From the NCBI GenBank assembly GCA_005808665.1, contig SYLG01000049.1, positions 1 to 64,000 on the forward strand: DNA of 64,000 bases, read 5' to 3'. Under the pieces are notes generated by a model, which ran no database searches, had not been told where the DNA came from, and was given only the letters and a program-made list of their open reading frames with translations. Shown here piece after piece: positions 2,534 to 56,862 of this stretch. A program made the translations under genes and the position numbers. The stretch is from Planctomycetia bacterium. Lineage in GTDB: Bacteria > Planctomycetota > Planctomycetia > Gemmatales > Gemmataceae. The first letter of the stretch is position 1. The number at the start of each line of letters is the position of its first letter.

Positions 2534-2604
2534 GAAAGATCACCTCATAAAAGCATGATAAGGGATTCGTTAGATGCAAATCTTTAGGTCGCAATGGAGG
2601 CAAG

Positions 2605-3087
2605 CTAATCGGATGCGCCAAGAGATTCCAGAAACCGGCCATGCGTGGGAAAACGAACGATCATTAGGGTTAGTAAACAAAGGGTAACACCAAGGAGGAT
2701 CCCCTTCTCCAGGTTGGATTTCACCAGGGTGAAAAAGATAAGGTTGATAAAGGCAGGCCCCTCCAATGTGGCATAGGTAATTATCCAGGACCAGGTTGCA
2801 TGTTTGGCCAACTGAAGGGGATCCGAAGAAGGCTTTTTTATCGAGGATAAAGAAAACCCAACTCCCAGGGAAGTGGATGTTAAAGCCATTGCCAGCGTAA
2901 AATGTACCCAATTGGGTTCATGGTCGATTTCCCGAAAAGGAGAGAGAATCACAAAAATAACAATGGCGGTGGCGACCCCCATCATCAAAACCGAACAGAT
3001 GATTTGCAGGATTTGGAGGTGGGACTTTCCACTTGGGGAGTCCAGCCAAGTCCGGATTGCGTAGGAGCTTGCCATTGGATCCGACAT
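2605..3087 (-). CDS. Small four-helix membrane protein, function unknown
   Basis: A 160-residue protein I do not recognise by name. Four hydrophobic segments can be seen, near residues 24-47, 60-80, 98-118 and 127-143, separated by short polar loops. An amphipathic N-terminus contains SSYAIRTWLDSPSGKSH. The start is ATG with AAGGA about ten bases upstream. It lies between the pyrophosphatase gene (93-base gap) and cstA (71-base gap) on the same strand, so it may be cotranscribed with them. A role linked to membrane energetics would be inference from position only. Confidence 0.75.
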   Translation of the reverse strand: MSDPMASSYAIRTWLDSPSGKSHLQILQIICSVLMMGVATAIVIFVILSPFREIDHEPNWVHFTLAMALTSTSLGVGFSLSSIKKPSSDPLQLAKHATWSWIITYATLEGPAFINLIFFTLVKSNLEKGILLGVTLCLLTLMIVRFPTHGRFLESLGASD

Positions 3088-3180
3088 GATTGCATTTCCT
3101 TTTCAGGGACAGAGTAATCCCCAAACCATGCTTTCCAAAAAACCAACGGAGCGGACGAAAGTTGGCAACGCAATCAGAGG

Positions 3181-30369: not shown

Positions 30370-31368
30370 ATGGTCCATCAAAAGGGAGGAAGGCGTTTCG
30401 CCTTCACCCTAATCGAGCTCTTGGTGGTGATTGCAATCATCGCCGTGCTAATCGGTCTTTTACTTCCTGCCGTGCAAAAAGTTCGCGAAGCGGCGAACCG
30501 GATGCAAAGCCACAACAACCTCAAGCAGATTGGAATTGCGCTCCATAGTGTGCACGATACCAACGGTAAATTGCCAACCACCCATGGTTGTTTCCCCAAA
30601 ACCGGCAACGGGGACGATTGGGGCAACCGTCGCATTCCTTCGGGATTCGGTACCCAGCAATATTTCTTGCTTCCCTACCTGGAACAGGATTCCGTTTACA
30701 AGCACCCCGAAATCAACGACAATGGTAACGGAAACAGCCAATCTTGGCGTTCACGCCAAGTCGTAAAAACCTACATTGCTCCTGGTGATCCCAGCGTTCC
30801 CACCGAAGGGAAAACATGGGGTGACCGTGGAGCTACTTCCTATTCCTCCAATTGGCACGCCTTTGGTGGCGGTTGGGGTGAAGATTGGCAAGTGGGCGGC
30901 AAAGCCCGCATTCCCTCCTCGTTCCCCGATGGCACCTCCTCAACGGTTGCCTATGTGGAACGCTATTGTATTTGCGGGACCAACGGCCAACCCACCGGCA
31001 CGGGCTATGTGGAGCGCATTTGGAACGAAGACGGCCAAAACTCCGGCCCAATCGCCAGCAAGTACACCGGAAATGTGTTTTTCATGCCTGCTTATTGGTT
31101 CCATATCCCGGGTGGTTATGATCCTACCCCCCCAGTGGATTACCCATTCAATCGTCAAACCGGGGCCTCGGCCTATGTGACCCTTCCCCAAGACAAACCC
31201 AATGTTGGTTTGTGTGATCCTACCCGACTTCAATCCCTTACCACAGGTGGCATTGGCTGCCTCATGATGGACGGGGCTGTTCGCAATGTGAGCTTGGGTA
31301 TAAGCAAAGCTACTTGGGGCCGGGCTTTCGTTCCCAACGATGGCGGCGTGATGGGTAACGATTGGTAA
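30370..31368 (+). CDS. DUF1559 pilin-like protein (type II secretion/type IV pilin N-terminus)
   Basis: A 332-residue protein with the prepilin signature [37 protein letters not shown] near residues 8-44: a basic leader, the FTLIE processing site with Glu5, then one hydrophobic helix. The rest is the DUF1559 domain, with landmarks [21 protein letters not shown] and the C-terminal [16 protein letters not shown]1559 proteins are greatly expanded in planctomycetes and probably form surface fibres or pseudopili; individual roles are unknown. It has a strong promoter and is followed after 82 bases by a lipoprotein gene and a terminator, so the two form a compact, likely highly expressed unit. Confidence 0.94.
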
Positions 31369-39618: not shown

Positions 39619-40629
39619 ATGGCCCGGAAGGCATTCACCCTGATCGAACTTTTGGTGGTCATTGCAATTATCGGCGTTTTGGTAGGGTTACTCCTTCCGG
39701 CCGTTCAAAAGGTTCGCGAAGCCGCCAGTCGAATGAGTTGTCAAAACCAGATGAAACAATTGGGCCTGGCAACCACTCAATTTGAGGGAACAATGCGGGT
39801 ATTTCCAGCCGCCTATTCCTACCTCGATGCCTTGGTCCCGGGCCAGTCCCTGCGCCCGATCAGCCTTTTCACGGCGTTGCTTCCTTTTTTGGAACAGGAC
39901 AGCCTTTACCAGCAATTTTTGGCCACCAATCCCACCCAATTACGCCTTGCCGGCGGGCCCGCAAGTCAACCCATCAGACTGTTTGTTTGTCCTTCTGCTT
40001 CTGGCATCATAAATCCTGTGGGCACCGGAACGATGATTGCAGGGGTTACGACCTATGGTGGAAATTCCGGAATTCGGAATTTTCCTTTGGAACAAGGAAC
40101 GGCGGATGGGGCCTTTCCTGTTTTTGATGATTCCCCCACTAAAAATGCGGCTCAAACAGCCCTATCGATGGCGAATGTTCGTGACGGGACCAGCAATACC
40201 CTCCTTTTTGGGGAAAAAATAGGAGGGGACGGCAATTGGGACAGCTGGGGTAGCGCAACGATTGATCCCCCCCCTCCCTTTGCCTTATCGGGGTATGCCT
40301 CTTACCAGGTTTGGGCAGGGATTGGGCAATTCCCCCCTGCCCAAGTAACCGGATCGGCCTGGAGTACCCTGAACTATTCCGTGCCTAGACCTTATATTCC
40401 CCCGCCACCCGTTTTTGGTGCTCCGCAACCGCCGCCAAAAATCCCCTGGAATACCATTCAGGGGGATATGGAGGCTCGGGTGGGAGCTTGGGGGAGTGCC
40501 CACACAAGTGTGGTTCAATTTGGTTTTGTGGATGGGTCGGTTCGTTCGCTCAATGTCAATATTTCCCTGGCCGCTCTGCGGGCCTTTGCAACGGTTGCGG
40601 GCGGAGAAATCACCGACAATACTCCGTGA
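39619..40629 (+). CDS. DUF1559 pilin-like protein (second copy)
   Basis: A 336-residue DUF1559 protein. The N-terminus [20 protein letters not shown] is a prepilin leader and helix with the FTLIE processing site. Family features follow: NQMKQLGLATTQFEG, LLPFLEQDSLYQQF, RDGTSNTLLFGEKIGGDG and the C-terminal HTSVVQFGFVDGSVRSLN. A Pro-rich insertion (YIPPPPVFGAPQPPPKIPW) lies near residues 258-276, and a C8 run at 40267-40274 encodes part of another Pro stretch. The ribosome binding site AGGAG lies about nine bases upstream. No lipoprotein partner follows; the next gene is mqnE, 127 bases on. Confidence 0.93.
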   Translation: MARKAFTLIELLVVIAIIGVLVGLLLPAVQKVREAASRMSCQNQMKQLGLATTQFEGTMRVFPAAYSYLDALVPGQSLRPISLFTALLPFLEQDSLYQQFLATNPTQLRLAGGPASQPIRLFVCPSASGIINPVGTGTMIAGVTTYGGNSGIRNFPLEQGTADGAFPVFDDSPTKNAAQTALSMANVRDGTSNTLLFGEKIGGDGNWDSWGSATIDPPPPFALSGYASYQVWAGIGQFPPAQVTGSAWSTLNYSVPRPYIPPPPVFGAPQPPPKIPWNTIQGDMEARVGAWGSAHTSVVQFGFVDGSVRSLNVNISLAALRAFATVAGGEITDNTP

Positions 40630-42251: not shown

Positions 42252-45200
42252 ATGTCAGCATCTGAATCGGTTCGTAATTGGTTAAGCCGCAAGGGTAAAA
42301 ATACGGCGGTTCCGTTGAACCGTCCCCTTTTGCTTAACCCGGCTTTGGAACTCCTTGAAGATAGGGCAGTACCAACCGCCTATCTCGTGGACACCACGCT
42401 GGATAATGTGGTAACCGATGGGTTGATCACCCTTCGGGAGGCGGTTTTGGCCGCCAATACAGGTCAACCGGTGGGGGATGCCCCTGCGGGTGATGGAAAT
42501 GATCAAATCCATTTTGCAACGGCTCTCGCAGGGCAGGCCATAAGTTTTCAAATCACAGGCGATTCCAGCTTGGGAAACAGTGCCTTGGCAGTAGCCAGAA
42601 ACATTGCCATAGAGGGCCTTCCCCAAGGGGGCCTCATTTCCGTAACGCTTAGAAACGATTCTACTTATGGCGATAGGCGACTTTTCGTGGTGGAACCGGG
42701 GGCCAACCTGCAACTTTTTGATGTAATTCTTTCGGAGGGTGTGGCGGTTGGAGCAAGTGGCAATTCAGGCGTCCAAGGGGGTGGAGGCGGAGGTGGCGGC
42801 GCAGGGATGGGTGGTGCCATCCTTAATCAAGGAAATTTAACCCTCCAAAACAGCACTCTCCATAAAAACATGGCCCAAGGGGGCCGAGGGGGAGATGGGG
42901 CGTTTGCTCCTGGTTCTGGCGCCCAGGGTGGTTTGGGAGGCGGGCTTTTGGGAGGAGCCGGAGGCACCGCCAATGTGGCCGGGATTGCGGGGGGATTTGC
43001 TTCCGGAGGCGGTGGGGGTGGCGGAACAGGAGCAAGTGCATCCGGGGCCGGGGGTTTTTCAGGTGAAAATGGCTTTGGTGGGGGAGCAGGGGGTGGTTCC
43101 GCTTCCAATTCCGCAAGTCCAGGCGATTTTGGCGGTCGAAATGTTGTCTATGGTGGACGGGGTGGTCAAGGTGACTCCATTCAAGGCGGTGGCGGCGGTG
43201 GCGGAGCGGGACTTGGTGGAGCTTTATACAATTTGGGCGGTTCCGTTTCTGTGGTCAATTCCACTTTTGGTTTCAATCAGGCCAAGGGGGGCCAAGCAGG
43301 AATAGGGGGGAATTTTTCTGCGACAGGGCTCGGTTTAGGGGGGGCAATCTTTTCACAAAACGGCTTTGTCCGGGTGGACAATTCCACCTTGGCTAAAAAT
43401 AGTGCCAGCCAAGGCGGGGCAATATTCGCCGTTGCTGATGGTGCTTCGGCAAGCGTAACCATGAACAGTTCGATAGCAGCCCAATCGGATGGTGCCAGCG
43501 ATGTGGTCGGCCAATCTATCCATTCCGGGATTCTCTCCGTATTGGGTGAGGCCAACCTGATTCAATATGCTGATAACTTTGCTGCCGGAACTTCCACTAA
43601 CCTTGATCCCCAATTAACAAACCTGGCCCGGAATGGGGGGCCAACCCCTTCGTTTTCCCTCCGATCGGGCAGCCCTGCACTTCAACTGGGCACAAATAGC
43701 CTGGGTTTGATCTTTGATCAGAGGGGCCAAGGATTTCCCCGAACCGTAGCCTCCTCCATTGACATTGGGGCCTTTGAATATGGGAACAACCAGGTTCCCC
43801 AAGTCATTGCCATCAATCGCAATTTCCCCTTGGATCAGGCCACCAACGCCACCACGGTTGATTTTCGTGTTGTTTTCAATCAATCCCTAACCGGTGTAAC
43901 TCCCGCCGATTTTGCACTTGCTGGTTCCGGGATCAGTGGGGCCACCATTCAATCTGTCGTTCCCGCATCCGGCTTGGAACCCGCAACGGAATACCTTGTC
44001 CAGGTTAAAACCGGTGGTGATGGCTCATTAGGCCTCAATCTTGCCCAACCCGGTGGGGCGGTTAATGCCCTGGGCGATAAGGTCCAGGGGACTTTTGTCG
44101 GGGATTTTTACAACATCGATAAAACTCAGCCCGCCGTCGTGGGAATCAATCTTTTGGATACCAATCCCACCAATGCAAATTCGGTTCGGTTTGGAGTTAT
44201 TTTCAGCAAAGATTTGGCAAATTCGCCCGCCTTGGCCAATTTCTCCCTGGATGGATCGGGTGTTACCGGGGATATTTTTTCCGTGGTTGCTGTCAATGGC
44301 TCGGCAAGTGCCTTTGTCGTAACCGTTACCAATGTCTCTGGCAGCGGCAACCTCAAGTTAAACCTGTCCGACCCTGCCGGGATCACCGACCTGGTCGGGA
44401 ATCCCCTCCAGAGTTCATTTTTTGCCGGACAAAACTACATCGTTGACCAGGTTGCACCAGAAGTAAGTTCCATAACTTTGTTGCAGGACCGATTGGCAAC
44501 CGAAGGTGCCCTTGAGTTTCAGGTGGTCTTTTCGAAACCAATCAACCGTTTGACCGTTAATGCCTTGACGGTTCAGGCCAGTTCAACTGGGGCTCCCGCG
44601 CCCGGTTTTGCCTTGGGTACTATATCCGGGAGCGAAACTACTTATCGGGTCCGGATCAATGGCATTGGAAGTGATGGCTTGATCACCGTTTCCATTGCGG
44701 ACAACGCAGCAATTTTTGATCTTTATGGAAATCAACTTGGGTTGGGGCTTGCCAGCAATCCAGTCGCCGTTTCAACCACCAAGCCTTGGGTTCAATCGAT
44801 CGTTCCCCTGGTTGGCACCCCAACCAATCAGCCGGTTGTATTCCAGGTGACTTTTTCCAAGGATATGCAGCCAGCGTCAGTGACCGTTGACGATTTCACC
44901 CTTGTTGGGGATGGAACTGCGGTAGGCCAAATCATCTCCGTGACCCCAACGGCAAATGCTGCCGTTTATGAAGTGTTAACCGGTGGGTTGGTTGGTACGG
45001 GGAGACTAGGTCTGGACATCAGTCCAGCGGCTATTCTTCAGGATCAAGCAACCGGTCAGCGACTTACCGGGACCTTTACCGATACCCAATTTGCCTTGGT
45101 GGACACAAATGGTCCCCTCGTAACCAGTATCCTCCCGATGGATGCCAACCCATCCCAGGAAACGACCCTCCATTTTCGGGTGAGTTTCGATAAGGAAGTG

Positions 45201-48200
45201 GATCCGGTAACCGTTGTTAATTCTGCATTTACAGTCGTTGGCCCCGTTGGGACTACCTGGGTGGTTAGCACCGCAACCCAGGATCCAACCTTTGCCAACC
45301 AATATATCATTGCCGTCCAGTCTACCGGGGCCGCCGCCAATGGGGCCCTGGTCCTTTCCGTTCCTACCACGGGCGGAATTCGGGATTTGGCCGGTAACCT
45401 TCTGGAACGGAGTTTTGATTCCGGCCAATCGTACTCCATTACCTCTGCAGCTCCGGGTGTTTCGTCCATCATCCTGGCCGATCCCAATCCTACCCGGGCT
45501 TCGCTGTTGGGTTACTACATCAGTTTCTCCGAGGATATTGATCCGCAAACGCTTAATCCCTCGGATTTTGTTGTTGAAACCGTTTCGGGAACGGCTTCCG
45601 GGGTGGTCTCTTCCATTTCAGGTTCGGGCAACCAATATTTGGTGTTGGTAACAATCACAGATGGCGATGGTCAACTACGCCTTGATACAGCAAATGACTC
45701 GGAAATTCGTAACCTTGCAGGCGTAAAAATCAACGCACAAGGGTACACGGGCGGCCAAATATACGACATCCTTTTTCAGCCACCTACCGTTAATTCTTCC
45801 ACCCCAACGGCACCCCGATCTGGTGTGTCCACTGTTTCCTTTTTAGTCAATTTTAGTTCGGTTATGAATGCCTCTACCTTGACCCCAGGCAACTTTCAGG
45901 TGTCATCAGTAGGCCTGGGGGGATCCCCATTTATTTCCTCCGTCGTGGCTGACCCGGTTTTCCGGAATCTTTGCCAAGTCTATGTTTCAGGCTATTCCGG
46001 GTCTGGTTCCTTAAAGGTTAATGTCCTTGGGAATCGTGGAGCCCAGGATGCCGCCGGGAACCCCCTCATTCAAGGTTTCAGTGGCGGGACAGCCATGGAA
46101 ATCAATACGGTTCCCGTGGTAGCTACTTCGGTTAGTTCCTTTTCCGTAGCCACCAGGTTGGACACAGCGTTTTCCCCTCCGGCGACTGCGGTTCCCTTTG
46201 AAGTACCTTTTACGGGTGCGATTAACCCAGCTTCGATTTCAATAGCCAGTTTCACCCTGATCGGGTCCTCCGGGACGATTAGCAGTGTTTTTATTGACCC
46301 ATTTACCCAGGTCAGGGCTTTATTGATCATTTCAGGCGTTACCACCGAGGGACTCCTTTCCGTCAATCTCAAACCCAACTCCGGAATAACCGATACCTTT
46401 GGCAATTTGGTATCCCCAATGGGTGTTGTCGGAACGCCCATTATCGTAAGCAACGCCCAACCATCCATTGCTTCGATTGTTTTGGTGGGAAGCCCCATTG
46501 TCGTTACTTCAACGGCCCAATATCGGGTTACATTTACCCCGCAAAATGGGGTCAATATCGATCCCTCCACCGTGATTCCAACCGGGTTCCATCTGGCAAC
46601 AACCGGCTCTGTTCAAGGAGTAATCTCAAGCGTCACCCCGGACAGTACGAATCCCAATGTTTTCCTGGTGAATGTAACCAATCTCACAGGGAAGGGGACC
46701 ATGGCGGTGGAGGTTCCCCAACCGGCACAAATCATGGATTATGCCGGGAATTTACTTGCCGGACTTCCATATTCTGAAACCCCAACCAATGTGAATGCCA
46801 TTGGCCCGGTTGTTCTTTCCATTGAATGTGTAAACCCTTCGGTGACAAATAGTACAAGCGTCGTATTTCGGGTGAAATACTCGGAACCTGTCCTTAACGC
46901 CCTGGTCCTTTCCAACTATTCCCAAACCATTTCCGGATCATTGACCGCAAACATTGTTGGGGTGGTTCCAACGGCTTTGGTCCCGGACAATACCAGTTTT
47001 GATGTCACCATTGGGTCGATTGGCGGGCAGGGAACCTTGGGCCTTCAGGTCTCAGGGGCTAGTATCCAAAATTTCGACGGAACCGCTTTCAAGGGGCTCT
47101 TCGCGGCCGGGCAATCTTACCTTATCGACAACCGGCTCCCTGCCGTTTCCAGCAGTACCCCAAGTGTCAGTGGACCGACTTCGACCGCCTCCATGACATT
47201 CACTCTTTTATTGAATGAACCCGTTAAAATTGCTACCGTGACCCCGGGTGTCCTCAATTGGGTTCAAACAGGATCCGTGACCAGTACCTTGACTTCCATT
47301 ACCCCGATCAATGAAGTTGCTCCTGGCTTGGCAAACACTTTTCAGGTTGAAGTCAATTCCATTGGTGGGACTGGAACTCTTGGATTAGGGCTTATCGCCA
47401 ATTCGAATATAGAAGACGCCTTTGGCAACCTAATGAAAGCGTCTTTTACGCCTACAAATATAGCAGTAATCAATCATTCTACCCCAAAGGTCACAAATAT
47501 CGTTTCCGGTAACACTAGCCCGATCACCAGCAGTTCTGCGATTTTCCGGGTTCTCTTTGACACCCCAATCAACCCGGCCACCGTGGATGCCTCCGATTTT
47601 GAACTGATAAAATTCGGCGTTAACGGGTTCATCAGTTCCATTGTTCCGGACGATTCGACCAATCAAACGATGCGTGTAACCCTGGAGGGGCTCCAAGGTG
47701 ATGGGTCTTTGACCCTAGATTTGGTCGAAAATGCTTCCATTCAGGATTTTGCCGGCAATCTGATTGATCCTGAACAAGTGTTTGGCCCCTATGAAAGGGT
47801 GCTCAATGTTGCCCCACGGGTGGAAGCCATCATTGCCCAAACTCCCAAGGTCAATAGTTCTACAGCAAATTATCAGGTCTTTTTAAATCAACAAATCCAA
47901 GCACCTTCAGGTACAGGATCAGAATTCCCCGTAGACATTAACAATTTCAATCTCCAAATGAATGGAAGCCTTACCGGACAAATCATTAGTGCTGTTGGGA
48001 ACAATGGATTTTTTGGCGGTTCTCATATTTTGGTGGAAATTGGCAATTTGGCCGGTCAAGGCACATTGACCCTTGGAGTTTCCGGGAACTCAACCATTTT
48101 CAATACGGTAGGCATCCCCCTTTCCCAGCCGGTGGACCCCTCGGCCAGTCAAACCATTGAGGTTAACACAATTGTCACGGTTGCTCAAACCATTGACCTA

Positions 48201-51200
48201 GGCGGGGAAGTGGATCTTGATCCCACCAGGGCAATGGGTAAAGCCTCCTTTGTGGTGAATTTCTCACAACCGGTGGATTCGGCTACAGTACTGTTAGCTG
48301 CTTTTGAACCCCAATTTTCAGGGACAACCACAGGGACTTTGGATTCGGTACTGGGGAGTGGTTCGAGCTATCTTGTCATGGTGAAAAACCTCACCGGAAC
48401 CGGTACCTTGCAATTGAACCTTCGTGCCGATTCGGGAGTTGTGGATACCTTTGGTACGCCGGTGACTGCACCTTTCAACTCTGGCCAATCGTATATTGTT
48501 CAATCGATCCTCCCCATTCAGACCCCTGAACCCCAGGTTACCTTGAATGCCGTTGATGCAACCCTTCCCACCAACCGTCAAAATCTTCAGTTCGTGGCCC
48601 AGTTTAATCGTGACATGGTTTCATCCACCGTTACCGCCGAAAAATTTGAGCTTGTCCTGTCCGGGGGAGCAACCGGCCGGGTTACCTCGGTGGTTGGTTC
48701 GGGACAGACCTATTTGGTCTCGGTGGATTCGGTATCCGGAACCGGGTCTTTATCCCTTCGAACCATTCAGGATCCCCAATTTCAAGACTACTATGGCAAC
48801 CAAATTTCGGGCCAACCGACTTCGCTATCCGGATTCGAGGTGGATAATACCAAACCAACGGTAGCCGGGATAATTCTGGATAATCCAATCCAAACCAATC
48901 GTGAATTGGTTGTCTATTCTGTTGATTTTTCGGAAGCAGTAAATCCCCTAACGGTTACTTCTGCAAATATGGTAACCGCTTCTCGTGGTGGCCAAATTGT
49001 TTCCATCCAACAATTGACCTCCACAAACTATCAAATTTCTGTGGCCACGAATGCAAGTTCCGAATCTCTGGGTTTGGTCTTCTTTAATATTCTGGACCTG
49101 GCTGGAAACCCACTTTATTATGATTCGACAAATGACCAATCCTACCAGGTAGACCGGGTTGGACCCAATGTGGTTAGCATTGACCGTTTGGATTCCTCAC
49201 CCACCGGGTCTCCTTCTGTCCGATACCAAATCGTTTTCAGCGAAACTGTTGATGCGACCACTGTTTCCCCAGCAGACTTTTTACCCGTGGTTTCGGGAAC
49301 ATTAACTGCAAGTATTCAAAGTGTCCAAGGGTCGGGATCAACCTACATTTTAACGGTTGATGTTCTGGGTGGATCGGGTAACCTCACTATTTCCGTACCG
49401 GCAACATCTGGAATCATTGACATTGTTGGCAATCCTTTGACAGGTCCGTTTTCGGCATCGGAATCCTATACGATCAATCGAAATGCGCCCAAGGTGGTTT
49501 CTTTCAATTCTGTTGTCCCTGCCGTTTCAGCAGGTCAAACTATCAACTATTTGTTAACCTTTGATTCCCCGGTGGATGCGGCAACGGTGGTACCTGGTGC
49601 ATTTCTTGTCCAGGCAACCGAATCGGCCTCCGGACAAGTGACAGGCATTGTTGGATCGGGAAATCAATATCAGGTTTCGGTGGCTCCTTCGGGGGGTAAC
49701 GGTGTCATTTCCCTGGAATTGCCGACTTTTTCAGGTGTCGTCGATCCGGAAGGAAATGAGGTCCAATCCGCATCTGTATCCACGGTTTGCCAATACGAAG
49801 CCGTTGCCCCTACGGTAACCAGCCTTATTCCCAGGGGCAGTTCCATTCAGGGTGGACCAGTCCTCCAGTTCCAGGTTACCTTTAGCCAACCGATGTTGGC
49901 TGGGTCATTCACCTCGGACAGCGTGGTTTTCCAAACAACGGGAAATGCGGTTGTGGGTTTTGGCAATATACAGTGGGTTAGTTCTACCGAAGCAATCCTG
50001 AATGTAAATGTGGTCAATGGCCAGGGTTCCATCGCTGTTCAAATTTTGGCCAACAGCGGGATTTTGGACCTTGCTGGAAATGCCCTTTCCCTGGGGGCAA
50101 CCAGCACCGAAATACTCCTGGAAGTAACACCCCCCTCGGTTGTCCTCCTTTATCCTGAACTTGGCAGTGGATTTCGAACAAATGCTTCCCAGGTTTCCTT
50201 TGCGGTTGTGTTTAGTGAAGGAATGCCGGCAGGGGCGGTACCCCTAAGTGCCATCCAGGTACTAACCACCGGGACCCTTGTTGCCCAGGTAATCCGTGTG
50301 GATCAGGATCCTCAGGATCAATCCGTATTCCATATCATCGTGGGTGGTCCCTTGCCTGGTCTTGCCATGTCGGGTGCAGGAACACTTAACCTTAAGATTC
50401 CGGATGGTGCGGCAATCTATGATGAAGCTGGCAACCAATTGTTCCAAGGTGCGTCCACCAATATTGGCATTTTAGTCAATCGTGTCACCCCTGCAATAAC
50501 CGGTATCGTGCCGATTGGTTCATGGAAATCGGGATCAGCAAGCCCTGGTTTTATTGTTTCCTTTAATGAAGTCTTACCGTTTGATGCGGTAAAACCATCT
50601 GATTTCACAATTTCCCTGGTTGGCATTTTTAGTGCTGGGATGACGGTGGATTCAGTCCTTCCGATTAACTTTACCGGGAATGAATCCTCCCAGTTCCAAG
50701 TCACACTTGCCGGGGCGGACGGATTGGGAACAATAACGATTGGCGTCAGTCCCACCGCAGACATCAAGGATTTCGAAGGCAACCAGCTTGATCCCTTGGC
50801 ACCGGTTTCCAGTACGGCCTTGGACTTCAATTCGGAGATTACCACGGTCCAATCGGTGAACCTGGTTGGGGTGATTCCTTCCCCTACGAATCAAACCTCC
50901 ATCACTTATGAATTGGTGTTTGAAGCACCCGTTAGCCACGCCGATGGCAGTGCCCTTGACCTGTCTGATTTTGAAACCACTGCTCCCAAGGGTGGGACTG
51001 CCCGAGGCACCGTTAGTGCGGTAATCGGTTCAGGAACGACTTATCAGGTTACGGTTTCCTTTGTTTCGGGAACGGGGGATATGGGGATCCGCCCTCTTTC
51101 AACCATTGTTAATGGGTATGGAGTATCGGTAAACCTGGGTACTCCTGATCCTGATGCTTTGGCCAATGTGGATCGTACTCCTCCGGCGGTGGTCTCCATA

Positions 51201-54200
51201 ATTCGTACCGGGGGAGGCTCCGCCATTACAGGGAGTCCAACGAGTACCTGGACGGTAACCTTTAGTAAACCTGTAAATGCCTCCTCGGTAAATGCCAGCG
51301 ATTTCAGACTCATTACCTCCAACTCCCTCATTGCCGAAATCGTGGATGTTATCGGCGAGGGCAATCTTTTCCAGGTAACCGTTCGCAATATCACAGGCGA
51401 TGGTGTAATAAACCTTGCGGTACCCCAGGGTGCCTCCATTTTTGACAATGTAGGAAACCGGCTGGTTGGCGATTTTACTGCGGGTGAAACCTATTCCACG
51501 GATAGGGTATTACCAAAGGTCTTTGAAATTCGTCCGATAACTGATACTTTGGTCCATTCAGGGGAGCAAATCCTGTGGAATGTGTATTTTGATAAACCTG
51601 TCCAACCCTCTACTGTAACTCCGGAGGTTTTTAAATTATCCAATCCGGATGGAACGGAATCCAATCCAACCGCATTTGGACGCATTGCCTCGGTCCTAAC
51701 CTCGCCGGATAACCCTTACGACTATATCGTGGTGGTGGATCAACTTGGCGGTAATGGCCAGCTTCGGCTTGATCTTCCCTCCGGAAGTCCTGTTGCCGAC
51801 GCTGCGGGCAATCGTCTTGCCAATGGGTATAATTCCGCACGAGTAGTTGTTGTTGATTCCCATGCTCCGGTACCCGAGTTGATTACCCGGGCTAACAACT
51901 CACCAACTGCTGCCTCTGGAGTCGGTTTCGTCATTACTTTTGATACGCCCGTATCCTTCGCAAGCCTGACGCCTGAAGATTTTGAGGTGGTAGGCACATT
52001 CTCCGCCTCGGGAATCGTCACCTCGTTCAGCCCCATTGATTTCGAAGGCAAACGGTTTGGGGTTCAGGTTTCAGGCATCACAGGTGAAGGGACCCTTGGT
52101 TTGGCCATCAGGCCGACTGCCCTGATCACTGACCTTGCGGGAAATCCGCTCGCCTATGGCCTCGGGGGACAACTACCCTACTCGGTTGATCGGGTGGCCC
52201 CTACCGTCCAGGAAATCCTGACCATTCCCAACGGCTCACCCATACTAACCGGATCTTCTGCGATATTTGAAATCGCTTTTACCGAAATTGTTACCGCCTC
52301 TACCGTGAATCCAACGGATTTTAACCTCTTAAAGACAGGGGGAATCACGGGAACGGTCAGCTCCGTTCAGCCAAAATCCGGCGTTGGCAATGACCAAAGG
52401 TACCTGGTTACCGTCAATGGTGTGTCAGGAACCGGAACGCTTGGCCTTCAAGTTCCATCAGGTGCCATTATTACAGACCTGTTGGGTAATAACCTGTCCG
52501 GCGGGTACACGATTGGCCAAACCTTCTCCGTTCGGACAACCGCCCCGACGGTCGCCAGCATTACCACCACTTTGCCAACCAGTCAAATCGTTCGCGTTTC
52601 CTCCGCGTCCTTTAACCTGGCATTTTCCAAGCCGGTTCAATGGGCCACGGTCAACACGGGATCGTTGAAAATCGGCACGGTGGGCGGCATCACAGGGACC
52701 CTTACCAATGCCAGCATAATTCCATTGGATGGGGATGCTATTACCGCCACCAACTTTAAAGTGGTGGTGACCAATATCCAGGGTTCCGGTTCCCTCCAAC
52801 TCAAGGTTGTTGGCAACATTATCAAAGATGCAACGGGTCAGTTTCTGGTTACCCCGTATTCGGGCCCTTTGGTTTCCATTGATAATCAGGCACCCAATAT
52901 CGTGGGAACCCCACTTCTGAATGTCAGTCCCACAAGTGCTTCCAGTTTTGGTTTCCGGGTCAATTTCAGTGAGAATGTGGTGGTGGATTCCGTTTTGCCC
53001 ACCTCTTTTGCATTGAATGACCCAACCCTAAAGGTTACGGGACAAATCTGGAGCATCGTTCCGGTTTCACCCATTAACGGTCGGGCAAGTGCATTCAATG
53101 TGTTGGCTCAGGGTATCAAAGGTACCGGTTCCGTCACTCTAAGCCTTTTGCAGAATTCAGGCATTCAGGACTCCCTGGGAAATACTCAAAACGGAGCCTT
53201 TAATGGCAGTACCCTGTACAGCGTCCAGAATGCCCTGGGGACCACCAACCCCATGGTTTCGTCGATTGTTTTGGATCCGGGCAATCCCGCAACCTCAAGC
53301 ACAGCAACCTTCCTGGTGGCTTTTGATAAACCGGTTACCAATGTATTGCCAACCAGTTTTACAACCACCATTGCTGGTGCTTCCGTGGATTTGGCCACAG
53401 CAATCAATCCTTCGCTTTATCGGGTTGTGGTTAGCCAACTGCCTTCCATCCAGGGCAACCTCAGGCTTAACCTTCCCAATAATTCGGGCATCGTTGATGC
53501 TTCCACCGGACTACCCTGTTTGGGTTACCTTGCCGGTGAAACGCTCTACCGGTCCAGCGTGAATTCCCTAAGTTCAACCGTGGATACATCTGCCCCTACC
53601 AATGGTGGGGTAACCGGTCGGGTGGTTTATCATGTGACCTTTTCCCAACCCGTTCAGATTTCAACGGTCGAAAACAACCTTCTCCAAAATTTTGGTTTTA
53701 CCTCCGTTTCCGGGAATCCAACAGGCACGGTGCTTTCCGCCACGGCTGCCGATTCATTGGGTGGATTGGCCACCCGCTTCGACATTGAAGTTGGTTCCCT
53801 TTCGGGGCAAGGCCAGCTTCGACTTAATGTGGCAAACACAAACCTGATTCTTTCCGCGGGGGGTAACAGCACCGCTGCTTTCAATGCAGGCCAAAGCTAC
53901 AACATCGACACCGTAAATCCCACCGTGGTGAGTATTGTTTGCTTGAACGGAGCCCTGACCTCTGCTAGCCAAATCACTTGGCGGGTTACCTTCTCGGAGC
54001 CGGTTGTTCCAGCATCTGTTACCCAGGACACTCTTTTTCTGGTCGAATCGGGCTCTGCACGCGGTGGTTTTGCCTCCATCAGTGGATCGGGTTCGGTTTA
54101 CCAAATCACCGCGAACCTGGTTGAGGGCATGGGAACCATAGGGCTTTCCGTTTTACCCGGTTCAGGCTTAAGTGGAATTAGGGACCTTGCCGGAAATGTA

Positions 54201-56789
54201 CTTGTTGAATCTGCCCAAGGCCCCAATACCAATGTCGATTACACCCCACCCAGGGTTTTGGGTGTAGCCATCAAGGATCCCAGTACGGTTACTTCGGGTC
54301 CGGCTTCGTTTGCCATTGGTTTTTCCAAGGCGATGAATCCCGCAACCGTAAATAATAACGCCCTGAAGCTGGTGGCGGATCCTCTTGGAAGTGTTTCCAG
54401 TTCCATCCAAACGATAGCGGTCACCGGTCCCAACACATTTGAGGTTGGGACGAACATTTCTTCTGGTAAAGGTAGCTTGGGCCTGGATGCGATTGTTGGC
54501 CGAGCCAGGGATGCGGCAGGCAACCCACTGGTAGCCGGATTCTCCGGTGGCCAAAGTTATGCCGTTTCCGCCAATCCACCAGAATGTTTGTCGATTTACC
54601 CTGCGGATGGTAACCGAAGCACCCGGCAAAGGTCTTTGGACTTTAATGCCTACTTTAATACTCCCATGAACCCTCAAACGGTGCTGGCTTCGGCTTTTCA
54701 AACAAGGAGTTCAACGGGTGGAGTAACCGGATCGGTCACCATGGTGGTGCCTTTGAATGAGAGCTCAACGGCATTTCGCATCACCGTTGAAAATGTCTCA
54801 GGAAATGGAACACTTGAGGTTGAGCCAATCAATGGGAATTCCATGGCGGACCAGATGGGCAGGGTTCTGGTTTATAATCCTAATCTTTACACAGGATCCT
54901 ATGAGGTTGACCATATCGCACCGACGGTTACGGGGATTTCCATAGTAGGAAATAGCCTGAGTAACCAAGCCTCAGTTCAGTTTTTGGTTTCCTTCAGCGA
55001 AGGAATTTCCTCGGAATCGTTGATTCCCGCTGCGTTTGGTCTGGTTACTACGGGTAACCTGATTGGGCGGATTTCAACTGTGGGTGGTGATAATGGGTCC
55101 TATTCGGTTCTCGTTAATAACCTTTACGGGGAAGGGACCGTGGCCCTGGTGGTGCTTGGGAACGGATTGATCACAGATATTGCCGGTAATTCCTTTGTCG
55201 GAAACCCGGTTACAGGCCCCGCCATCACCATTTCCACCCAAGCCCCAACCGTGCTTTCGATTGATCCGGTAGGACCCACCAAAACCAATGCATCCGAGGT
55301 GCAATTCCAGGTGGCATTCTCCCAACCGATGGATCTTGGAAACATTGAACCGTCTGACTTTGTTCCCCTCTTTACGGGCAGCCTTTCGGGCCAAACCCTC
55401 ACCGCCGTGGCGGTACCGGGATCAACCTCCCTTTTCACCATAACCGTGGGCAATTTGGTAGGCAAGGGCACCGTTGGCCTCATGGTGCCCGAAAATGCCA
55501 CACTGCTGGATCAGGCAGGGAACCCACTCCAGACTTCCTTTACCGGGTCATCCACCTTTAATGTGAATCGGGTTGCTCCGGTAATATCCACTTTCCAATC
55601 CCTGGAGGGCTACAACCCCACCAGCAAATCCGCACCCTTCCTGCTTTCTTTCACAGAAGCCGTGGTAGGCGTTACTCCCACCCGCTTCACCATCACCCCT
55701 GCCGGGGCCGGGGTGATCACCAATCTGCAATCTTTGGATGGTGGCATTACCTTTACATTCGATGTTCTCTCCAGTCGGCAGGGTGCGCTAAAGGTAACCT
55801 TGAACCCGGGGGGTATTACCGACACCTATGGAAATGCGTTGGTGAGCGGGGGATCGGTAGCCATTAATTATGCTCCTGCTTTGCCAACCGTTGCTGCGTT
55901 AGGAATAGGTGGACTTCCAAAGGTTCAGGTCATTACTTCGGATGGTTCAAGCCATACTTTCCAACCCTTTGGTTCAGGGTACAAGGGTGGAATCAGCGTA
56001 GCGGCCGGCGATGTCAATGGAGATGGGGTAGCCGACATCATTATTGGGGTGGCCAGTGGAGCCGCACCTCACATTAAGGTCTTTTCTGGAACGACTTACC
56101 AACCGATCATGAGTTTCTTTGCCTTTGCCACATCCTACACAGGTGGGATCAATGTGGGAGCAGGGGACATCAATGGCGACGGTTTCTCGGATGTGATTGT
56201 GGGTTCGGGGCTCAATGCCAGGCCTCATGTCAAAGCTTTCTCCGGCAATAACGGGCTCGCCATCCGAAGTTTCTTTGCCTATGCGGCCAATTTTGCCGGT
56301 GGAGTTCGGGTGGCGACTGGCGATGTTGACGGGGATGGGGTGGCCGAAATCATTACCGGTTCGGGTGCGGGAACCAGGGGCCATATCAAGGCTTTCAAGG
56401 GTGGGTTTAATACGGTCATCAAGAGTTTCTTTGCTTATGGCCCCAGCATCACCACCGGAGTTTTTGTGGCCTCGGGAGATTTGGATGGAGATGGCCAGGC
56501 GGAAATCGTTGCCTCCCTGGCCCAAGGTGGACTATCGACTGTCCGCATTTTCAAGGGTAACCAACTAACCCCCCACCAGGAGTTCCAGGCGTTTACCACC
56601 TCCTTCCGCGGAGGATCGAGGGTTGCCATTGTAAACCGTGCCGATCAAACGGGGCCAGTGATTGCAGCCGGGAACGGCCCAGGCCTTCCTTCCCAAATCC
56701 GCTCCTTCAATGGCCAAACCACCGCCTTCATTGACACCGTGTTTGTCTTGACCGAGTTTGGTTTCGAAGGGGGAATTTTTATAGGGTAA
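42252..56789 (+). CDS. Giant surface protein: LEDR N-terminus, Gly-rich beta-helix, 36 Ig-like repeats, FG-GAP tail
   Basis: One uninterrupted frame of 4845 residues, about 23% of the window. Residues 32-43 (LELLEDRAVPTA) match the LEPR/LEDR motif found near the N-terminus of many large planctomycete exported proteins in place of a classical signal peptide. Residues about 43-515 resemble a CSLREA/choice-of-anchor-Q module: ITLREAVLAANTG, beta-helix turns such as GGAILNQGNLTLQNSTLHKN and the end SIDIGAFEYG. A very Gly-rich segment (171-370) lies inside it. Residues about 515-4541 are tandem Ig-like repeats of about 112 residues, and 4545-4845 hold four Ca-binding DxDGDG motifs of FG-GAP type. 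No catalytic domain or C-terminal sorting signal is visible. Probably a cell-surface or adhesive filament; function unproven. A strong terminator follows. Confidence 0.93.
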   Translation: MSASESVRNWLSRKGKNTAVPLNRPLLLNPALELLEDRAVPTAYLVDTTLDNVVTDGLITLREAVLAANTGQPVGDAPAGDGNDQIHFATALAGQAISFQITGDSSLGNSALAVARNIAIEGLPQGGLISVTLRNDSTYGDRRLFVVEPGANLQLFDVILSEGVAVGASGNSGVQGGGGGGGGAGMGGAILNQGNLTLQNSTLHKNMAQGGRGGDGAFAPGSGAQGGLGGGLLGGAGGTANVAGIAGGFASGGGGGGGTGASASGAGGFSGENGFGGGAGGGSASNSASPGDFGGRNVVYGGRGGQGDSIQGGGGGGGAGLGGALYNLGGSVSVVNSTFGFNQAKGGQAGIGGNFSATGLGLGGAIFSQNGFVRVDNSTLAKNSASQGGAIFAVADGASASVTMNSSIAAQSDGASDVVGQSIHSGILSVLGEANLIQYADNFAAGTSTNLDPQLTNLARNGGPTPSFSLRSGSPALQLGTNSLGLIFDQRGQGFPRTVASSIDIGAFEYGNNQVPQVIAINRNFPLDQATNATTVDFRVVFNQSLTGVTPADFALAGSGISGATIQSVVPASGLEPATEYLVQVKTGGDGSLGLNLAQPGGAVNALGDKVQGTFVGDFYNIDKTQPAVVGINLLDTNPTNANSVRFGVIFSKDLANSPALANFSLDGSGVTGDIFSVVAVNGSASAFVVTVTNVSGSGNLKLNLSDPAGITDLVGNPLQSSFFAGQNYIVDQVAPEVSSITLLQDRLATEGALEFQVVFSKPINRLTVNALTVQASSTGAPAPGFALGTISGSETTYRVRINGIGSDGLITVSIADNAAIFDLYGNQLGLGLASNPVAVSTTKPWVQSIVPLVGTPTNQPVVFQVTFSKDMQPASVTVDDFTLVGDGTAVGQIISVTPTANAAVYEVLTGGLVGTGRLGLDISPAAILQDQATGQRLTGTFTDTQFALVDTNGPLVTSILPMDANPSQETTLHFRVSFDKEVDPVTVVNSAFTVVGPVGTTWVVSTATQDPTFANQYIIAVQSTGAAANGALVLSVPTTGGIRDLAGNLLERSFDSGQSYSITSAAPGVSSIILADPNPTRASLLGYYISFSEDIDPQTLNPSDFVVETVSGTASGVVSSISGSGNQYLVLVTITDGDGQLRLDTANDSEIRNLAGVKINAQGYTGGQIYDILFQPPTVNSSTPTAPRSGVSTVSFLVNFSSVMNASTLTPGNFQVSSVGLGGSPFISSVVADPVFRNLCQVYVSGYSGSGSLKVNVLGNRGAQDAAGNPLIQGFSGGTAMEINTVPVVATSVSSFSVATRLDTAFSPPATAVPFEVPFTGAINPASISIASFTLIGSSGTISSVFIDPFTQVRALLIISGVTTEGLLSVNLKPNSGITDTFGNLVSPMGVVGTPIIVSNAQPSIASIVLVGSPIVVTSTAQYRVTFTPQNGVNIDPSTVIPTGFHLATTGSVQGVISSVTPDSTNPNVFLVNVTNLTGKGTMAVEVPQPAQIMDYAGNLLAGLPYSETPTNVNAIGPVVLSIECVNPSVTNSTSVVFRVKYSEPVLNALVLSNYSQTISGSLTANIVGVVPTALVPDNTSFDVTIGSIGGQGTLGLQVSGASIQNFDGTAFKGLFAAGQSYLIDNRLPAVSSSTPSVSGPTSTASMTFTLLLNEPVKIATVTPGVLNWVQTGSVTSTLTSITPINEVAPGLANTFQVEVNSIGGTGTLGLGLIANSNIEDAFGNLMKASFTPTNIAVINHSTPKVTNIVSGNTSPITSSSAIFRVLFDTPINPATVDASDFELIKFGVNGFISSIVPDDSTNQTMRVTLEGLQGDGSLTLDLVENASIQDFAGNLIDPEQVFGPYERVLNVAPRVEAIIAQTPKVNSSTANYQVFLNQQIQAPSGTGSEFPVDINNFNLQMNGSLTGQIISAVGNNGFFGGSHILVEIGNLAGQGTLTLGVSGNSTIFNTVGIPLSQPVDPSASQTIEVNTIVTVAQTIDLGGEVDLDPTRAMGKASFVVNFSQPVDSATVLLAAFEPQFSGTTTGTLDSVLGSGSSYLVMVKNLTGTGTLQLNLRADSGVVDTFGTPVTAPFNSGQSYIVQSILPIQTPEPQVTLNAVDATLPTNRQNLQFVAQFNRDMVSSTVTAEKFELVLSGGATGRVTSVVGSGQTYLVSVDSVSGTGSLSLRTIQDPQFQDYYGNQISGQPTSLSGFEVDNTKPTVAGIILDNPIQTNRELVVYSVDFSEAVNPLTVTSANMVTASRGGQIVSIQQLTSTNYQISVATNASSESLGLVFFNILDLAGNPLYYDSTNDQSYQVDRVGPNVVSIDRLDSSPTGSPSVRYQIVFSETVDATTVSPADFLPVVSGTLTASIQSVQGSGSTYILTVDVLGGSGNLTISVPATSGIIDIVGNPLTGPFSASESYTINRNAPKVVSFNSVVPAVSAGQTINYLLTFDSPVDAATVVPGAFLVQATESASGQVTGIVGSGNQYQVSVAPSGGNGVISLELPTFSGVVDPEGNEVQSASVSTVCQYEAVAPTVTSLIPRGSSIQGGPVLQFQVTFSQPMLAGSFTSDSVVFQTTGNAVVGFGNIQWVSSTEAILNVNVVNGQGSIAVQILANSGILDLAGNALSLGATSTEILLEVTPPSVVLLYPELGSGFRTNASQVSFAVVFSEGMPAGAVPLSAIQVLTTGTLVAQVIRVDQDPQDQSVFHIIVGGPLPGLAMSGAGTLNLKIPDGAAIYDEAGNQLFQGASTNIGILVNRVTPAITGIVPIGSWKSGSASPGFIVSFNEVLPFDAVKPSDFTISLVGIFSAGMTVDSVLPINFTGNESSQFQVTLAGADGLGTITIGVSPTADIKDFEGNQLDPLAPVSSTALDFNSEITTVQSVNLVGVIPSPTNQTSITYELVFEAPVSHADGSALDLSDFETTAPKGGTARGTVSAVIGSGTTYQVTVSFVSGTGDMGIRPLSTIVNGYGVSVNLGTPDPDALANVDRTPPAVVSIIRTGGGSAITGSPTSTWTVTFSKPVNASSVNASDFRLITSNSLIAEIVDVIGEGNLFQVTVRNITGDGVINLAVPQGASIFDNVGNRLVGDFTAGETYSTDRVLPKVFEIRPITDTLVHSGEQILWNVYFDKPVQPSTVTPEVFKLSNPDGTESNPTAFGRIASVLTSPDNPYDYIVVVDQLGGNGQLRLDLPSGSPVADAAGNRLANGYNSARVVVVDSHAPVPELITRANNSPTAASGVGFVITFDTPVSFASLTPEDFEVVGTFSASGIVTSFSPIDFEGKRFGVQVSGITGEGTLGLAIRPTALITDLAGNPLAYGLGGQLPYSVDRVAPTVQEILTIPNGSPILTGSSAIFEIAFTEIVTASTVNPTDFNLLKTGGITGTVSSVQPKSGVGNDQRYLVTVNGVSGTGTLGLQVPSGAIITDLLGNNLSGGYTIGQTFSVRTTAPTVASITTTLPTSQIVRVSSASFNLAFSKPVQWATVNTGSLKIGTVGGITGTLTNASIIPLDGDAITATNFKVVVTNIQGSGSLQLKVVGNIIKDATGQFLVTPYSGPLVSIDNQAPNIVGTPLLNVSPTSASSFGFRVNFSENVVVDSVLPTSFALNDPTLKVTGQIWSIVPVSPINGRASAFNVLAQGIKGTGSVTLSLLQNSGIQDSLGNTQNGAFNGSTLYSVQNALGTTNPMVSSIVLDPGNPATSSTATFLVAFDKPVTNVLPTSFTTTIAGASVDLATAINPSLYRVVVSQLPSIQGNLRLNLPNNSGIVDASTGLPCLGYLAGETLYRSSVNSLSSTVDTSAPTNGGVTGRVVYHVTFSQPVQISTVENNLLQNFGFTSVSGNPTGTVLSATAADSLGGLATRFDIEVGSLSGQGQLRLNVANTNLILSAGGNSTAAFNAGQSYNIDTVNPTVVSIVCLNGALTSASQITWRVTFSEPVVPASVTQDTLFLVESGSARGGFASISGSGSVYQITANLVEGMGTIGLSVLPGSGLSGIRDLAGNVLVESAQGPNTNVDYTPPRVLGVAIKDPSTVTSGPASFAIGFSKAMNPATVNNNALKLVADPLGSVSSSIQTIAVTGPNTFEVGTNISSGKGSLGLDAIVGRARDAAGNPLVAGFSGGQSYAVSANPPECLSIYPADGNRSTRQRSLDFNAYFNTPMNPQTVLASAFQTRSSTGGVTGSVTMVVPLNESSTAFRITVENVSGNGTLEVEPINGNSMADQMGRVLVYNPNLYTGSYEVDHIAPTVTGISIVGNSLSNQASVQFLVSFSEGISSESLIPAAFGLVTTGNLIGRISTVGGDNGSYSVLVNNLYGEGTVALVVLGNGLITDIAGNSFVGNPVTGPAITISTQAPTVLSIDPVGPTKTNASEVQFQVAFSQPMDLGNIEPSDFVPLFTGSLSGQTLTAVAVPGSTSLFTITVGNLVGKGTVGLMVPENATLLDQAGNPLQTSFTGSSTFNVNRVAPVISTFQSLEGYNPTSKSAPFLLSFTEAVVGVTPTRFTITPAGAGVITNLQSLDGGITFTFDVLSSRQGALKVTLNPGGITDTYGNALVSGGSVAINYAPALPTVAALGIGGLPKVQVITSDGSSHTFQPFGSGYKGGISVAAGDVNGDGVADIIIGVASGAAPHIKVFSGTTYQPIMSFFAFATSYTGGINVGAGDINGDGFSDVIVGSGLNARPHVKAFSGNNGLAIRSFFAYAANFAGGVRVATGDVDGDGVAEIITGSGAGTRGHIKAFKGGFNTVIKSFFAYGPSITTGVFVASGDLDGDGQAEIVASLAQGGLSTVRIFKGNQLTPHQEFQAFTTSFRGGSRVAIVNRADQTGPVIAAGNGPGLPSQIRSFNGQTTAFIDTVFVLTEFGFEGGIFIG
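42762..43361 (+). repeat. Gly-rich low-complexity segment in the giant gene
   Basis: Encodes residues about 171-370 of the giant protein, in which glycine is the most common residue, with runs of up to eight (VQGGGGGGGGAGMGG) and repeated GGAGG and GGGGG blocks. Glycine codons are mixed, so this is protein-level low complexity rather than a simple DNA repeat. It interrupts beta-helix turns, so the Gly-rich stretches may be extended loops. Confidence 0.85.
43797..55874 (+). repeat. 36 tandem Ig-like repeats in the giant gene
   Basis: Counting by eye gives 36 units of about 100-120 codons. A typical unit reads P-x-V-x-S-I near its start, then VxFxVxFSxPV, xSVxxxDF, SGxLxGxIxSVxGSG, YxVxVxxxxGxGxLxLxV, a loop IxDxAGNPL and an ending QSYxVDRxAP that runs into the next unit. 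Units are clearly related but diverged, with no two identical by eye, so the array is old rather than a recent expansion. The pattern resembles bacterial Ig-like domains of the family often found before VCBS or FG-GAP modules. Confidence 0.88.
55900..56780 (+). repeat. FG-GAP / VCBS-like C-terminal repeats of the giant protein
   Basis: Four calcium-binding loops of the DxDGDG type occur at regular spacing of about 157 bases, beginning near 56009, 56168, 56325 and 56479: GDVNGDGVADIIIG, GDINGDGFSDVIVG, GDVDGDGVAEIITG and GDLDGDGQAEIVAS. Each is followed by a segment like PHIKVFSG and FFAF or FFAY. Together they fit an integrin-like beta-propeller. The last blade lacks a clear loop before the stop. 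Confidence 0.88.
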
Positions 56790-56814: not shown

Positions 56815-56840
56815 AAAACCCCGGTTCTCCGGGGTTTTTT
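56815..56840 (+). terminator. Intrinsic terminator after the giant gene
   Basis: AAAACCCCGG (56815-56824) pairs perfectly with CCGGGGTTTT (56829-56838) around the loop TTCT, followed by T residues to 56840. It is 26 bases after the stop codon of the giant gene and upstream of the rpsA promoter. Confidence 0.9.
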
Positions 56841-56862
56841 CTTGGACTTTCGTTCCATATTC

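Follow-up and report, generated by a model that had tools for sequence, protein, structure and literature searches.

The 64,000-nucleotide window, the whole stretch of DNA that was analyzed, is a piece of a planctomycete genome (contig C18; 4.48 Mb in 186 contigs) and holds one 14.5-kb gene whose product is, judged by its sequence, the longest sampled member of a group of giant putative surface proteins in the Gemmataceae. The protein is a clean example of a planctomycete giant-gene product: a putative rod of 36 immunoglobulin (Ig)-like repeats set between two recognizable end modules. The domain families concerned (Big_5, FG-GAP, choice_anch_Q) are already known; what appears to set the protein apart is the repeat number, 36. 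Taken together, its sequence and the structure models point to a probable surface rod, structural or adhesive in role.

As the earlier note had stated, the frame is open throughout, with 4,845 codons and no interruption (Table 1). Its ATG start is kept in the orthologue of a related genome (MSASESVR..., G002). The product has a predicted mass of 493 kDa and a pI of 4.4, and only 6/4845 residues are Cys. Hydropathy gives no evident transmembrane helix or anchor; an acidic pI, few Cys, and no evident transmembrane helix are a predicted profile typical of secreted proteins. The protein has no recognizable export signal of any known type, and RGD, KGD, and LDV motifs are absent from it. No NCBIfam model of a C-terminal sorting signal (PEP-CTERM, LPXTG, and similar) matches, the propeller being the end of the protein. 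The gene lies between mqnE upstream and rpsA downstream, neighbors that give no hint of function. No promoter was found by consensus on its 5′ side. The inverted repeat of a probable terminator lies shortly behind the stop codon, overlapped by a scanner candidate (56828-56846) that is not above chance. Two DUF1559/prepilin-like proteins, of a family typical of planctomycetes, are encoded nearby (window 39619-40629, confirmed by Pfam and NCBIfam; 30370-31368, assigned by eye).

Table 1. Features of the giant gene and its product, in window coordinates.
Feature	Residues	Positions	Strand	Basis
Giant ORF, 4845 aa		42252..56789	+	ATG start; uninterrupted frame
Motif ELLEDRAVP	33-41	42348..42374	+	Sequence motif
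Gly-rich module, probably right-handed beta-helix		42378..43604	+	TIGR04212, TIGR04214 matches; composition
Choice-of-anchor Q domain	452-510	43605..43781	+	NF041518, E 1e-16
36 tandem Ig-like repeats	516-4542	43797..55877	+	Pfam, own HMM, AlphaFold2, Foldseek
Six-bladed FG-GAP beta-propeller	4543-4845	55878..56786	+	Pfam, model, PDB sequence and fold search
Ca-binding-type loop 1, DVNGDGVAD	4587	56010..56036	+	Sequence motif
Ca-binding-type loop 2, DINGDGFSD	4639	56166..56192	+	Sequence motif
Ca-binding-type loop 3, DVDGDGVAE	4691	56322..56348	+	Sequence motif
Ca-binding-type loop 4, DLDGDGQAE	4743	56478..56504	+	Sequence motif
Probable terminator, perfect 10-bp inverted repeat AAAACCCCGG-TTCT-CCGGGGTTTT and T run		56815..56841	+	By eye

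A profile HMM was built from 16 repeats, delimited by the D..GN motif, and run in rounds on the giant protein; each round returns 36 domains (residues 516-4535), exactly the number that had been counted by eye. The final independent E-values, which improve by construction over the iterations, range from 9e-31 to 3e-15. On 50 shuffles the seed HMM finds 0 domains, against 36 in the real sequence; a second HMM, made from the odd repeats alone, recovers 18/18 even ones (E 1e-30 to 2e-8). Spacing averages 112.2 aa (sd 5.3), in line with the earlier estimate of about 112 residues. The earlier note had proposed a Pfam search and a structure prediction as checks. Pfam assigns 16 stretches to Big_5 (PF13205; E 8.6e-44, 149 bits against a cut-off of 23.6), the remaining copies being recognized only by the protein's own HMM. 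The AlphaFold2 model, which covers repeats 25-26 only and used an alignment of 25 overlapping window pairs, contains two Ig-like beta-sandwiches (pLDDT 93.4).

In Foldseek, the nearest structures to this repeat pair are the E. coli adhesin FdeC and the S-layer protein SbsC, followed by immunoglobulin-like proteins, with TM-scores of 0.2-0.44 that are probably low because the query had two domains. The sequence profile of the repeats also finds SbsC. FdeC and SbsC are likewise bacterial surface proteins with a series of Ig-like beta-sandwiches, but they share 13-17% identity with the repeats described here, have other termini, and contain far fewer repeats. Big_5 domains are also known from non-fiber proteins.

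The age of the array can be judged from its internal divergence and from the genus. Mean pairwise identity between repeats is 25.6%, against 26.3% for adjacent ones; recent tandem expansion is rejected since neighbors are no more alike than distant copies. The genus comparison used two other genomes, G001 and G002, in which the orthologues are split by contig ends. G002 encodes the N-terminal 1,503 residues on one contig, following mqnE, with 72% identity across residues 1-513; a second contig carries the C-terminal 1,378 residues, preceding rpsA. In G001, the last 412 residues lie in front of rpsA. The compared set comprises repeats 1-9 and 27-36 of G002 and repeat 36 of G001, the 17 positions from 10 to 26 being lost to contig ends in the relatives. 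In 20/20 cases, a repeat matches its same-position counterpart best, with 51-81% identity against 30-41% for the next best. The dN/dS ratio is about 0.13 in the repeats, where dS is nearly saturated. In the tail (G001), which is more conserved between species than the repeats, it is 0.05. Over the readable repeats 1-9 and 27-36, same-position orthology and low dN/dS indicate an old, ordered array subject to purifying selection. In 18 genomes of other genera, the surroundings of mqnE, as far as they were read, have neither rpsA nor the giant gene next to it; in this sample, the locus order is therefore specific to the genus.

The N-terminal region carries the LEDR motif of the earlier note within ELLEDRAVP, a type of motif that further large proteins of this genome also carry. 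Hydropathy gives no evident Sec-type signal peptide or hydrophobic stretch near the N-terminus. Planctomycete N-terminal export motifs are represented by the families Planc_extracel (Pfam) and LEPR-XLL (NCBIfam). Over the first 60 residues, neither these curated models nor any other Pfam or NCBIfam model matches the LExR motif at E<=1, and the likeness to the two families is by eye only. At the DNA level, an LExR pattern has 11 matches in the own genome and 0 in the control. A looser pattern has 28, of which the independent number is smaller because about 12 look, from DNA similarity, like one repeated paralogous N-terminus. As a phylum-wide signal the motif is rejected, the pattern being near control level in 194 other genomes of the phylum sample.

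A repeated N-terminus of the type ESLENRLVPDGQGFSQLLPQWNGD recurs on about a dozen contigs of the own genome, often near contig ends and in some cases by DNA similarity only (L179, L181-L183, L187, L189, L192, L193, L197, L198, L200, and L203, all on different contigs). To judge from the shared sequence, these proteins are a paralogous family using the same kind of motif as LExR, and they may break the assembly of this genome.

Behind the motif, the Gly-rich module described in the earlier note is borne out by composition, with 22.5% Gly across residues 1-515. The beta-helix fold also proposed there stays likely rather than certain, because similarity to the rhombotarget A/CSLREA models is weak (TIGR04212, E 1.4e-5; TIGR04214, E 0.1) and no PDB sequence relative is significant. 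The Gly-rich part ends in a choice-of-anchor Q domain, which the earlier note had left unnamed and which scores 57-61 bits on NF041518 against a curated cut-off of 25.

At the other end, the four loops of the FG-GAP tail noted earlier are all present, and the tail proves larger than described, with six blades in the model. Pfam recognizes FG-GAP (E 3e-14, 52.8 bits against a cut-off of 22.1) and FG-GAP_3 (E 2e-10). The model, from an alignment with nine relatives, has a pTM of 0.88 and consists of five four-stranded blades plus one closed by the N- and C-terminal strands, the last strand GGIFIG completing the first blade. By sequence, integrin alpha-V is the closest PDB match (E 9e-16), and it ranks among the nearest folds too. 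The integrin alpha propeller has seven blades, and integrin-type FG-GAP propellers occur in bacteria, including Gemmata obscuriglobus (PMC3192720). The tail shares with them its FG-GAP blades and DxDxDG Ca loops, but six blades are modeled here instead of seven, and the protein is without an integrin-like partner or membrane helix.

The propeller is widespread in the family. A tail HMM at E<=1e-20 finds it in 72/95 family genomes and 26/39 genera. Single genomes have as many as 44 matches, and the own genome has 23. The repeat profile matches 60/95 genomes. Among named genomes, close relatives of the tail occur in Limnoglobus roseus, Fimbriiglobus, and other Gemmataceae MAGs, which would put the present genome close to this family. 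In the own genome, about 15-20 large proteins with different middles terminate in the propeller (L061-L064, L076-L090), which ends in a strand like GGVFVG and lies no more than about 50 aa from the stop in nearly all copies. Eight tail-bearing ORFs there, including the giant one, have the strict motif E.LE.R.(VLIM)P near the N-terminus. One of these eight LExR proteins (L079:1554-4421) has its propeller directly behind the N-terminal motif and not at the C-terminus. Propeller relatives over much of the length are also found in CPR genomes (Falkowbacteria and Uhrbacteria; L106, L107, L113, L114), possibly by transfer.

In the search for co-linear homologues advised in the earlier note, a contig scan with residues 1-1000 found none in the named genomes. 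Besides the orthologue fragments of the same genus, another genus of the family has a protein of 823 aa with the same order (L238:2670-5138, G050). This protein has the LExR motif, a CSLREA/beta-helix-type region, choice-of-anchor Q, an Ig repeat, and the FG-GAP propeller, but only 1 Ig-like repeat against 36. Other proteins carry several repeats followed by the same propeller: 17 in L233:4996-15471 (G087), 7 in L246 (G008), 5 in L076 of the own genome, and 4 each in L230 (G060) and L231 (G058). All except L246 are recorded with the LExR motif, and several of the group differ at the N-terminus, where they carry domains such as ELWxxDGT repeats. These counts come from the best loci only, not from every match of the repeat profile; no protein read has more repeats than the 36 described here, and a longer relative may exist among the other matches.

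The suggestion that the architecture may be undescribed holds in part. The repeat number is unmatched elsewhere among the proteins read, and the papers searched contain no description of 36 Big_5 repeats combined with an FG-GAP propeller at the C-terminus, nor did any paper on the combined domain names turn up. The families are known, though, and the order recurs with 1 repeat or, as repeats and propeller, with 4-17 in family proteins, so the counter-case the earlier note had itself named, a known repeat family in the same order in other proteins, is largely what is found. Giant genes are common throughout the phylum and reach about 36 kb (Reva and Tummler 2008, as cited in PMC5352709, PMC5177795), and the same two sources describe most of them as annotated for cell-surface or adhesion proteins (PMC5352709, PMC5177795). 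The present gene resembles these very long, repeat-rich single genes with predicted surface or adhesion products and, at 14.5 kb, lies above the 5 kb used to define giant surface-protein genes, but it is not the largest of the phylum.

In the proposed mechanism, the protein would leave the cell and stay fixed to its surface as an extended rod, in which the Ig array would act as a spacer about 150 nm long. The estimate is roughly 36 x 4 nm, and a length above 100 nm, as in the earlier note, is geometrically reasonable; the stalk, holdfast, or contact fiber named there would be a putative role. An acidic chain of Ig domains, almost free of Cys and with a different module at each end, would suit such a rod. 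The propeller might serve as a shared end for surface holding or sorting, or might bind a common ligand with Ca-stabilized blades. A holding or sorting end is favored because the propeller is constant across many otherwise different proteins; a common-ligand head is the less favored alternative. The N-terminal region would be the more variable, presented end, and attachment, cell-cell contact, or matrix building is the likely role. A further idea, though a doubtful one, is that tens of large Gemmataceae-type proteins per genome use the six-bladed propeller as their dedicated C-terminal module for sorting or surface anchoring, often with an N-terminal LExRxVP-type export motif, which would make it part of an undescribed secretion and display route with the 36-Ig rod as one client.

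Against this anchored rod stands the view that the protein is secreted into a matrix without anchoring, or is a coat component akin to Ig-like S-layer proteins, and forms no anchored fiber. The repeats are closest in sequence to the Ig-like domains of S-layer SbsC, and no membrane anchor is seen. However, Pfam and NCBIfam searches of the protein return no SLH or other S-layer wall-binding domain, and a 493-kDa protein that is one of about 20 paralogues with this tail does not resemble a single, abundant S-layer component; we regard a matrix or coat function as unlikely. Alternatively, function could reside in the N-terminal module and propeller only, with the array a neutral by-product of repeat expansion. 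The greater conservation of the tail and the shorter relatives with 1-17 repeats agree with such an origin, but it is improbable given repeats too diverged for recent expansion, their position-specific orthology, their low dN/dS, and an intact 14.5-kb frame.

Beta-helices often hold polysaccharide lyases, and the top fold match of the propeller is the rhamnogalacturonan lyase YesX. Both would suit an N-terminal region with an unrecognized activity, enzymatic or ligand-degrading, for which the repeats would be a spacer. Yet Pfam and NCBIfam find no catalytic domain or family in the protein, in agreement with the earlier note, and the N-terminal module is without a significant PDB sequence relative, so that an enzyme is a highly improbable reading. 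A surface rod that has a structural or adhesive function stays the probable interpretation.

To our knowledge, how very large planctomycete surface proteins are exported and held is not understood. The C-terminal propeller and N-terminal motif, common to many large proteins, offer a handle on this problem, and natural variants with 1 to 17 repeats allow length to be compared with function. The newest aspect lies outside the repeats, in the family-wide propeller and the LExR motif, which together may constitute a display route.

Other genomes have other shared ends. Four proteins of G034 (L236, L237, L240) share a dockerin-like end, ...D(F/L)LQFRL(R/H)FLQSV, in place of the propeller; they measure 347 to 6187 aa in the pieces read, and contig C44 of this genome has an open frame of 8146 codons. 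In G094 (L244, L245), where the propeller tail has no match at E<=1e-20, three proteins share the C-terminal end PTPQGxGDFxVxx. Compared by sequence, such C-terminal ends seem to be lineage-specific alternatives.
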